NCBI GenBank assembly: GCA_016124635.1
Contig: WGNJ01000014.1
Span: 1-64,000, forward strand
Source: Alphaproteobacteria bacterium
GTDB taxonomy: Bacteria > Pseudomonadota > Alphaproteobacteria > Micropepsales > Micropepsaceae
Length of the DNA: 64,000 nt
Reading direction: 5' to 3'
Shown here piece by piece: positions 28,917 to 32,307 of this stretch. The first letter of the stretch is position 1; every line of letters begins with the position of its first letter. A program made the position numbers and the translations under genes. A model generated the notes under the pieces. The model was not told the DNA's origin and made no database searches. It saw only the letters and a program-made list of their open reading frames with translations.

Positions 28917-28941
28917 GGAACGTGTGACCCATCGCCGCGTT
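28917..28941 (+). promoter_or_regulatory. EcfG promoter of csbD
   Basis: GGAAC (28917-28921), 16-nt spacer, CGTT (28938-28941). Exact consensus, 55 bp before the csbD ATG and immediately after the previous terminator. Confidence 0.8.
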
Positions 28942-28996: not shown

Positions 28997-29197
28997 ATGA
29001 ACTGGGATCAGATCGCAGGCGACTGGAAGCAATTCGGCGGCAGGATCCGCGAGAAGTGGGGTAAGCTTACCGACGACGATTTCACGATGATCGGTGGTCG
29101 ACGCGACCAGCTTTTGGGCGCGATCCAGAAGCGCTATGGCGTTGCGCGCGAGGAAGCTGAAAAGCAGCTGAGCGAATTTGAGCACACGCTGCACTGA
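28997..29197 (+). CDS. CsbD-family stress protein
   Basis: 66 aa, small hydrophilic protein. MNWDQIAGDWKQFGGRIREKWGKLTDDDFTMIGGRRDQL matches CsbD-like proteins, which accumulate under general stress in many bacteria; the molecular role is not known. AGGAG lies six bases before the ATG. Its own EcfG promoter and the terminator in front make it a likely direct target of the EcfG encoded 2.6 kb downstream. Confidence 0.93.
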   Translation: MNWDQIAGDWKQFGGRIREKWGKLTDDDFTMIGGRRDQLLGAIQKRYGVAREEAEKQLSEFEHTLH

Positions 29198-29492: not shown

Positions 29493-31247
29493 TCAAGCGG
29501 CGGCGATGGCCGCCTCGCTTTGCGAATGATGCGGCGCAGAGGGATCCGGGAAGTCAAGCTCGACGATCGTGCCGCCGCCCTCGCGCAGCCGCGTCGTGAT
29601 GCGGCCGCCCACTTGCTGCGCGAAGGCCCGCATAAGTCTGGAGCCTGTGCTTGCATCGGCGCCATCAACGAGTTCGACACCGACGCCGGTATCGCACACG
29701 ATCAGCCGAAGGCGGCCGGGCTCGCCGGCTTCGAGCGCAAGCTCCAGTACGCGGGTTCGCGCCTTGGCGTTGAACGCATGTTTATACGCGTTGGTGAGCG
29801 CTTCGACCGCAAACAATGTGAGCGGTATCGCGAGATCGGCGCTTACAATGCGCGGTTGCGCAACATTGACCTTGATTTGGATTCCCCGCCGCTCGCCGCC
29901 AAAGCTTTGATGGAGCTGTTCGGTCAACTCGCCCCACAGCGCTCCCATGTCCACCCGGCCGGCGTTGTCCAGCTCGTATAGGATGCGGTGCACGAGCGCG
30001 AGCGCGTTGATACGTGTTCGCGTTTGATCCAAGGCTTCGCGCGACGCGGCGTCGCGAACCTTGCTGCTCTGCAAGCTGAGCAAGCTCATCACGATCTGCA
30101 AATTGTTTTTGACGCGGTGGTGGATTTCCTTGATCAGCGTCGTCTTCTGGCTCACAGCCTCGCGCAAGCTCGTATCGCGTTCTTGAATGGCTTGCGCCAT
30201 GTCGCCGAGCGTATCCCCAAGGTCGCGAAATTCGCGCGGCGCGTCTTTGAGCGCCGCTGGACGCACCGTGTAATGCCCGCGGCCATACGCAACCGCGACG
30301 CGTTGCAACAGCACGATCCACCGGACAACCAGGCGATCGGCCGCGTACCAAATCGCTGCGGACGCCAACGCGATCATGAGCACCGGCAGCAAGAGATCCG
30401 TGGCGACGTGAATGTAAGTCAGCGTGAACAGTTCGGACTGCGGCATTGCAAAGCCGACCCATGTGTCGCGGCGGATGAGCGGCGCCATGGCAAAGGACCA
30501 TGCTTCCTGGTTGGGACCGGTGCCTTCAAATAGTCCGTTGCGTCCGGCGCCGGCCTGAGCACCTTTGGCAAAGACCAGCTTGGCGACATCGGGGTCGCTT
30601 GCGGCGATCAGCCTTCCGGTGCGATCGAACAAGCCGACCACCGCACCATGTGGCAATCGCTTGTATCGCAGCAGCGCGTCGAGCCAATTGACATCGATCG
30701 CGATGTTTAGCGTTCCGTCGAACTCGTCGGTCTTCGTCGTGAGAGGAAGCACGCCGACCAATATTTTTCGCTTGGATGCCTGGCCGTAGATCGGTCCCGC
30801 GATCATGAATTGGCGGCGCGTCTTGACCTCGCTCCACCAGGGCTGACTTGCGACGTCGGAGTTGGTGCGGGGCAGTGCCGAGCAGATTGCCCGCCCCGCT
30901 GCGTTGACGCGCACGATGTTCGGGAAAAAGGCGAGCCCAGCGACCGCATTGGCGAGCGATCGGGTGCAGGTGGCGCCCCCGTCTCGCACGTCTTCTTGGT
31001 TGGCGAGCGCGCGCAAAATTTGCTCGCCGGAAGAAAAGATATTCTGCTCGTCGCTTGCGGCCACCAAAGCGCTTCGCGTCAACTGATCTTGCGCGTCGGC
31101 TTCGTCGAGGTTGAGTCGCTCAACCCCCTGCCACATGCTCAAAACTGCAACCGGGAGCAGCGCTATCGAGACGATGAGCCAGAAGCGAAGCCGCAAACTG
31201 TCGCTGATGCGGCTGAAGGTTGCCTCATCCGTCGCGCCGGTCGCCAT
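29493..31247 (-). CDS. General stress response sensor kinase (HisKA_2/HWE type)
   Basis: 584 aa. One membrane helix near the start, an extracytoplasmic sensor region (about 35-275, dCache-like), a second helix near 285-305, a HAMP-like segment, then HisKA_2 with EIHHRVKNNLQIVMSLLSLQ and an HATPase domain (FAVEALTNAYKHAF, CDTGVGVEL). Its place behind ecfG, overlapping its 3' end by 23 bp, suggests that it phosphorylates PhyR, like PhyK in other Alphaproteobacteria. The ATG at 31247 is preferred; the open frame starts 60 bp earlier inside ecfG. Confidence 0.9.
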   Translation of the reverse strand: MATGATDEATFSRISDSLRLRFWLIVSIALLPVAVLSMWQGVERLNLDEADAQDQLTRSALVAASDEQNIFSSGEQILRALANQEDVRDGGATCTRSLANAVAGLAFFPNIVRVNAAGRAICSALPRTNSDVASQPWWSEVKTRRQFMIAGPIYGQASKRKILVGVLPLTTKTDEFDGTLNIAIDVNWLDALLRYKRLPHGAVVGLFDRTGRLIAASDPDVAKLVFAKGAQAGAGRNGLFEGTGPNQEAWSFAMAPLIRRDTWVGFAMPQSELFTLTYIHVATDLLLPVLMIALASAAIWYAADRLVVRWIVLLQRVAVAYGRGHYTVRPAALKDAPREFRDLGDTLGDMAQAIQERDTSLREAVSQKTTLIKEIHHRVKNNLQIVMSLLSLQSSKVRDAASREALDQTRTRINALALVHRILYELDNAGRVDMGALWGELTEQLHQSFGGERRGIQIKVNVAQPRIVSADLAIPLTLFAVEALTNAYKHAFNAKARTRVLELALEAGEPGRLRLIVCDTGVGVELVDGADASTGSRLMRAFAQQVGGRITTRLREGGGTIVELDFPDPSAPHHSQSEAAIAAA

Positions 31248-31869
31248 GGTTAGGGTCTGCCGGGGCCAGCGTATCCAATTGCGCCAGGATGTCATTTGCG
31301 GCCTCACCCACCGACGGCCGCGCGCCCAACGGGTTGGCGCCGGTTCCGCTCAACGCACTTTCGAGCGTCCGCCGCGCCCGTGCAACGCGACTCTTGATCG
31401 TGCCCAGCGCACAGCCGCAGATCTTGGCCGCTTCTTCATACGCAAATCCGCCGGCGCCGACCAAAATCAGAGCCTCGCGCTGCTCGTTGGGCAGCAATTG
31501 CATTGCGCGAGAAACATCTGAAAGCGCCATGGAGGCGTGCTGCGACCCACCGGCCACGAGCGATTGCTCAGCCGTCGCGTCGTCCCAGGGCTTCTGCCGC
31601 CAGGCTCTGCGCTTTTCCGAGTAGAATTGGTTGCGCAAAATCATGAACAACCAAGCTTTGAGATTTGTGCCGGGTTCAAAGGTCGCCCGGCTTTGCCATG
31701 CCTTGGCAAGCGCCTCTTGGCAAAGATCGTCGGCTTGGTCTCGGTGGCCGCAGAGCGTGCGCGCGAACGCGCGCAGAAAGGGGATCAACTCGATCAGCCT
31801 CTCCTTAAAGTCCGCGCCGCCGGCGACTTGGGCGTCGAACACGCCCGTTTCAGTCATTCGCTGTCCCAT
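31225..31869 (-). CDS. ecfG: ECF sigma factor EcfG (general stress response)
   Basis: 214 aa. Region 2 (DQADDLCQEALAKAWQSRATFEPGTNLKAWLFMILRNQFYSEKRR) and region 4 (LLPNEQREALILVGAGGFAYEEAAKICGCALGTIKSRVARARRTL) are typical of EcfG. It directs transcription from GGAAC-N16/17-CGTT promoters, four of which lie within 4 kb. It starts 3 bp after nepR, whose product sequesters it. Alternative start: Met5 at 31857. Confidence 0.95.
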   Translation of the reverse strand: MGQRMTETGVFDAQVAGGADFKERLIELIPFLRAFARTLCGHRDQADDLCQEALAKAWQSRATFEPGTNLKAWLFMILRNQFYSEKRRAWRQKPWDDATAEQSLVAGGSQHASMALSDVSRAMQLLPNEQREALILVGAGGFAYEEAAKICGCALGTIKSRVARARRTLESALSGTGANPLGARPSVGEAANDILAQLDTLAPADPNHGDRRDG

Positions 31870-32109: not shown

Positions 32110-32219
32110 TTGCGAAATTTACCTTTTCCACATTGCAGCGTTATGTACGCTGTCCGTACTGTATCCATCTCCGCCATAGGTGCCTGTTACACCGCCACCG
32201 CTGGAAGTTGTGAGCCCTA

Positions 32220-32244
32220 AACGCGGGTGCGGCGAAAAAGTTCC
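32220..32244 (-). promoter_or_regulatory. EcfG promoter of nepR-ecfG
   Basis: Minus-strand GGAAC (32244-32240), 16-nt spacer, CGTT (32223-32220). It gives the operon positive autoregulation, with a leader of about 100 nt before nepR. Its -35 faces the phyR -35 across 9 bp. Confidence 0.78.
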
Positions 32245-32253
32245 TGCGGCTTG

Positions 32254-32279
32254 GGAACTTTGAGGTCCGCCAATCCGTT
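32254..32279 (+). promoter_or_regulatory. EcfG promoter of phyR
   Basis: GGAAC (32254-32258), 17-nt spacer, CGTT (32276-32279), 28 bp before the phyR ATG. Divergent from the nepR promoter. Confidence 0.78.
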
Positions 32280-32307
32280 AGGTGGCTACGTAGTTAAGGA
32301 GACCCTC

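Follow-up and report, generated by a model that had tools for sequence, protein, structure and literature searches.

Two EcfG-type promoters lie back to back between the divergent units nepR-ecfG and phyR in an alphaproteobacterial genome of the Micropepsaceae, and the question raised by this locus is whether the short distance between them is simply inherited or is part of the way in which the stress switch works. The window, meaning here the whole 64,000-nucleotide stretch analysed (contig WGNJ01000014.1, positions 1 to 64,000), contains a PhyR with both sigma-like and receiver domains and, divergent from phyR, a nepR gene beside an EcfG-type ECF sigma gene with sigma regions 2 and 4 (Table 1). 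It shares gene content, order, divergence and the GGAAC-N16/17-CGTT consensus with the alphaproteobacterial GSR core locus as described in the accessible parts of PMC4814048, PMC8103513 and PMC7083833. The locus is of a known kind, with promoters of this consensus ahead of both units.

Table 1. Features of the nepR-ecfG/phyR locus, in coordinates of the window
Feature	Position	Strand	Basis
PhyK-like HisKA_2 sensor kinase ORF, overlaps the ecfG end, start not settled	29493..31307	-	PF02743, PF07568; NF051872 358 bits, below cut-off of 750
ecfG, ECF sigma factor, 214 aa, 3 bp after nepR	31225..31869	-	PF04542, PF08281; best NCBIfam match PRK12547 190.7 bits, cut-off 219
nepR, anti-sigma factor, 78 aa	31873..32109	-	PF18557 45.4 bits against cut-off of 25.7; NF051865 (NCBIfam equivalog) below cut-off
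EcfG-type promoter of nepR-ecfG	32220..32244	-	Motif search of window, GGAACTTTTTCGCCGCACCCGCGTT; -35 GGAAC 32244-32240, N16, -10 CGTT 32223-32220; kept in own-family loci
9-bp spacer TGCGGCTTG between the two -35 elements	32245..32253		Read from sequence
EcfG-type promoter of phyR	32254..32279	+	Motif search of window, GGAACTTTGAGGTCCGCCAATCCGTT; -35 GGAAC 32254-32258, N17, -10 CGTT 32276-32279
AAGGAG, Shine-Dalgarno-like, ahead of phyR start 32308	32296..32301	+	Read from sequence
phyR, response regulator anti-anti-sigma factor, 264 aa	32308..33102	+	PF22029, PF22233, PF00072; NF006623 357 bits against cut-off of 240

The initial annotation had placed GGAAC-N16-CGTT on the minus strand and GGAAC-N17-CGTT on the plus strand between the two units, with -35 boxes 9 bp apart, and both sites were confirmed, at 32244-32220 and 32254-32279 respectively. 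It had described the pair as face to face; the -35 boxes are the inner elements and both transcripts head away from the centre, so the promoters are divergent and stand back to back. The spacing from GTTCC to GGAAC is exactly 9 bp in the window sequence, the -35 boxes forming an inverted repeat, and the -10 elements are 52 bp apart, one at each end of the dyad. The phyR ATG is 28 bp past its -10 and the nepR start is 110 bp past the opposite -10; the predicted nepR leader (32110-32219), ∼100 nt in length, is much longer than that of phyR. Both units are probably under EcfG control, as had also been proposed, since both promoters are conserved and such control is established in studied relatives (PMC4814048, PMC8103513 and PMC3616915, accessible parts). 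In the species studied, both units are EcfG-dependent and autoregulated (same sources and PMC7083833, accessible parts), and in S. meliloti rsiA1 and rsiB1 are both rpoE2-dependent, with mapped starts (PMC3616915, accessible part).

The genome encodes at least three further EcfG-like sigma factors, with identities of 68%, 55% and 46%, and a lone ecfG mutant is therefore not a clean test of EcfG dependence. Two of these paralogues are located at C25:268143-268700 (L366, 68%) and C13:76433-76981 (L367, 55%), and no exact EcfG-type promoter was seen by eye directly upstream of L366. A strict EcfG-type site at C7:11880-11904 lies ∼135 bp ahead of the paralogue at C7:12039-12509 (L368, 46% identity), an arrangement that resembles sigma cascades such as SigT to SigU. 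Within the window, another strict site (28917-28941, plus strand) precedes by ∼55 bp a short ORF (28997-29197) named CsbD-like by eye; csbD is among the EcfG targets listed for S. granuli in the accessible part of PMC7083833.

The strict motif was found six times in the window, against 2.9 expected, and 9 of 100 shuffles reached six. This enrichment was not significant; genome-wide, 96 sites were found against 145 for a reversed control motif. A divergent pair with a gap of 0-60 bp did not occur in 300 dinucleotide shuffles, and the analytic expectation is 0.0004 per window. Among the 96 genomic sites, in a list read by eye, the window pair is the sole non-overlapping divergent pair within 60 bp, the three other divergent pairs being self-overlaps of the form GGAACG...CGTTCC. 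A single motif is weak evidence; the pair is strong evidence and not a product of chance.

The promoter distance was compared across phyR loci of the class. A PhyR search (E <= 1e-40) gave a match in 68 of 96 genomes of the window's own family, and PhyR was found in 63 of 385 genomes of a class sample; all strong PhyR loci of both were fetched. In the window's own genus (g1) PhyR was missing at E <= 1e-40 in 7 of 11 genomes, including genomes 100%, 98% and 92% complete, a patchy loss of the stress switch. A Rhizobiales-like order (PhyR in 149/249 genomes) contributed 30 loci and 60 more picked for genus spread, a Rhodobacterales-like order (101/148 genomes) 30 loci and 20 chosen ones, and two further orders (3/36 and 32/118 genomes) 30 loci from the 32 genomes with PhyR in the latter; nine named loci were used of 33 plasmid records, and the order names are inferred from the named plasmid loci. 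Five distant receiver-domain matches outside Alphaproteobacteria, from a PhyR search of genome contigs, were set aside as relatives, and weak receiver-domain matches (L030-L035), own-genome pattern loci (L036-L065), L329 and L331-L335 were excluded from the counts. After six duplicates were dropped, the set comprised 311 loci, of which 248 had nepR detected within 800 bp; clustering at 85% PhyR identity left 185 representatives, that is, non-redundant phyR loci with divergent nepR. The best plus and the best minus site were picked independently at each locus with a promoter matrix trained on strict sites of the same loci, which is circular for the motif and not for the gap, and the threshold was set at 95% of mononucleotide shuffles. 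Distances to phyR and nepR use alignment-based starts, and the tree was built with FastTree from PhyR alone.

In the window's own family, 65 loci with divergent nepR were examined and both promoters were above threshold in 60, 55 of which had a -35/-35 gap of 5-10 bp (5 bp in 3 loci, 6 bp in 5, 7 bp in 8, 8 bp in 7, 9 bp in 13 and 10 bp in 19). The standard deviation in these 55 loci was 1.6 for the gap, 7.7 for the stretch between the plus -35 and the phyR start and 27 for that between the minus -35 and nepR. The five exceptions had gaps of -200, 14, 29, 61 and 62. Four own-family phyR loci in which nepR was not detected (L126, L128, L131 and L133) carried the phyR-side promoter and had no partner at 5-10 bp.

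Class-wide, both promoters were detected in 144 of the 185 representatives, the minus site alone in 28, the plus site alone in 7 and neither in 6. Two tight layouts were prominent: 64 of the 144 loci had a gap of 5-10 bp, a class found in 24 family codes, and 44 had a gap of -32/-33, in which the promoters are interleaved; a further 12 had gaps of 27-41 bp and 24 had others. Shuffled regions (3700) yielded no pair at 5-10 bp and one at -32/-33. Among the 63 loci without detected nepR, three showed either layout (one at 5-10, two at -32), and one of the three, L025, looks like a missed nepR. Two named loci belong to the 5-10 bp class: the -35 boxes are 5 bp apart on S. meliloti pSymB (strain Ak57) and 9 bp apart in Methylobacterium bullatum. 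The Sphingomonas parapaucimobilis locus had the nepR-side site only, and an acceptable promoter pair was not found at the Shinella and Roseobacter litoralis loci. Pairs with a gap of -27 (5/144) arise from GGAACG...CGTTCC, which needs just three extra bases, and were treated as chance. Gaps of 29-41 bp were observed at L084, L085, L212, L260, L262, L269, L278 and L305, and most loci with gaps of 29-32 bp have an A or T run in mid-gap, possibly a shared UP-type element. At L015 and L019 a second strict EcfG-type site directed towards nepR was observed 39 and 38 bp nearer that gene than the first, giving tandem promoters.

The interleaved layout was present in 37 of 46 representatives of family code f22 (Rhodobacterales-like), in 3/4 of f42 and in 1/1 of f149. 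It takes the form of a palindrome of the type GGAACCAAACGC-N8-GCGTTTGGTTCC in Gemmobacter fulvus, Pseudorhodobacter turbinis and Dinoroseobacter shibae, and the same with one mismatch in Ketogulonicigenium vulgare. Each -35 sits just past the -10 of the opposite promoter, so that one polymerase must cover both. On the PhyR tree the layout switched at least three times, and the gap altered its length no fewer than 31 times inside the 5-10 bp class and no fewer than 11 times inside the interleaved one. Drift of the gap is frequent yet bounded, which argues for selection on the distance.

A search independent of PhyR, for the pattern AACG-N16/17-GTTCC-N0-30-GGAAC-N16-CGTT, gave matches in 90 of 397 Rhizobiales-like genomes, against two matches in the control columns. 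Of 70 pattern places extracted, 24 adjoin a phyR from the Rhizobiales-like PhyR search above (21 at a gap of 5-10 bp and 3 at 29-30), and the remaining 46 are a mixture that includes phyR loci of genomes outside that search and is spread over gaps of 0-30 bp. Other divergent EcfG-type pairs were dropped as proof, being mixed with chance matches in coding DNA.

These data lead us to a proposal to which we give about even chances: the dyad in the window would be a compact divergent promoter unit for one sigma factor, with its two initiations coupled, probably by interference between holoenzymes, and would thereby set the ratio of PhyR to NepR-EcfG. EcfG-RNA polymerase would start either nepR-ecfG, and possibly the kinase gene, leftward or phyR rightward, and a holoenzyme on one promoter would hinder binding or opening at its neighbour. 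During self-amplification of EcfG, each initiation would then yield either the sigma factor with its inhibitor or the antagonist of that inhibitor, and the PhyR : NepR-EcfG ratio would be set by relative promoter strength and not by the level of EcfG. Coupled initiation in two directions would be the reason why the spacing is kept, and other lineages may reach the same end with one palindrome of 32-33 bp that holds a single polymerase.

The reading that survives best beside this one, though we consider it rather unlikely, is that two ordinary EcfG promoters act independently and that their proximity, a legacy of descent, serves no regulatory purpose. The gene arrangement is general in the class (PMC4814048 and PMC8103513, accessible parts), and in 36 of the 144 loci with two detected promoters the gap belongs to neither tight layout, at some of them exceeding 50 bp. 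The switch can therefore live without tight packing, which is not obligatory, and these loci also speak against coupling as a rule. However, the 31 or more gap changes in the narrow class stayed within 5-10 bp while the flanking distances drift widely, and a second tight layout exists. Gaps of 11-27 bp, moreover, occur in only 4 of the 144 loci, yet are present at other divergent EcfG-type pairs, which are in part chance matches in coding DNA.

That the coupling is cooperative, two holoenzymes occupying the dyad together or the firing of one helping the other through DNA bending, shared alpha-CTD contacts or negative supercoiling, appears distinctly unlikely. The lower limit of 5 bp would leave space for two sigma-4 domains. 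In the 5-10 bp class a T tract (at least four T of five) follows GGAAC in 43/64 plus sites on the phyR side and 25/64 minus sites on the nepR side, and it is absent from the interleaved class (0/44 on each side); the tracts could reflect a need for bent DNA or, alternatively, an extended -35. The larger gaps also hint at helical phasing, with Rayleigh p values (24 loci / 19 stronger ones) of 0.011/0.012 at 10.0 bp, 0.058/0.045 at 10.5 bp and 0.084/0.043 at 11.0 bp, although the test is weak, its results are borderline, and neither the relatedness of the loci nor the trial of three periods was corrected for. Against cooperation, the six gap values of the narrow class span ∼170 degrees of the helix, which fits no fixed protein-protein contact, and two polymerases cannot fit the interleaved layout.

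It is very improbable that the nepR-ecfG promoter alone is active and that transcription of phyR starts at some other promoter; the minus site shows the greater regularity, as the 28 minus-only and 7 plus-only loci indicate, but both window sites are perfect and the phyR orthologues of S. granuli and S. meliloti are EcfG-dependent (PMC7083833 and PMC3616915, accessible parts). The inverted repeat formed by the -35 boxes would suit an operator for a dimeric transcription factor, a reading that is scarcely credible and was rejected because the spacing varies from 5 to 10 bp, beyond the tolerance of a rigid dimer, and each half continues to a correctly spaced -10 element (CGTT in 40/64 plus and 49/64 minus sites of the 5-10 bp class).

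How far interference between holoenzymes would go is a separate matter. Geometry compels interference only in the interleaved class; for the class of the window it is inferred. Phage lambda PR and PRM are back-to-back promoters with a short stretch between their -35 elements, and they are co-occupied by two polymerases with interference at opening; they differ from the present pair in depending on the housekeeping sigma factor and repressor control, and do not belong to an autoregulatory sigma circuit. As their spacing is similar, strict exclusion at the window dyad may be wrong. The suggestion in the initial annotation that two holoenzymes may exclude each other is thus favoured by the narrow limits of the layout and by the lineages in which exclusion would be unavoidable, but in the window it may have to be softened to partial interference with co-occupancy.

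Warman et al. (PMC12825309) describe bidirectional promoters in E. coli and other prokaryotes, which are comparable in that one short segment supports divergent transcription with steric competition between polymerases. In E. coli they show no competition at basal activity, competition on activation and lower noise. They differ in sharing a -10, with sigma-70 starts most often 18 bp apart, whereas two complete sigma-EcfG promoters are present here; the window pair, with its distant -10 elements, falls outside the definition used there, in which starts lie beside or within one shared -10. Separate divergent promoters are outside the scope of that work; it does not term them bidirectional and reports that direct clashes leave them unaffected (PMC12825309). 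For an EcfG dyad, almost no firing would be expected in unstressed cells and strong firing under stress, and it is under stress that competition should count. For the GSR core locus, co-regulation has been proposed to keep the stoichiometry of the three proteins (PMC4814048, accessible discussion). The kind of locus, the textbook arrangement of nepR-ecfG divergent from phyR and control of both units by EcfG are known (PMC4814048 and PMC8103513, accessible parts). The promoter spacing and its conservation are, by contrast, not described for this locus in the literature searched, in accessible text; no paper on the spacing or on the interleaved form was found there, most subscription papers being outside reach, and the conserved two-layout geometry is undescribed as far as searched.

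For Alphaproteobacteria as a whole, it is our tentative suggestion, somewhat less probable than that for the window, that the stoichiometry of the partner switch is hard-wired by two EcfG promoters placed in one polymerase-sized target, in either of two layouts, each initiation selecting either sigma factor and inhibitor or the antagonist, giving a ratio independent of the strength of the positive feedback and lower noise. A partner switch that amplifies itself has to keep its components in balance as it does so. Should that balance come from competition at a single DNA target, promoter spacing alone would encode a mechanism of ratio control that can be recognised in the genomes of many Alphaproteobacteria, and work on promoter interference would move beyond sigma-70 to take in a stress sigma factor under autoregulation. 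The conserved geometry with its two layouts makes the competition hypothesis directly testable.
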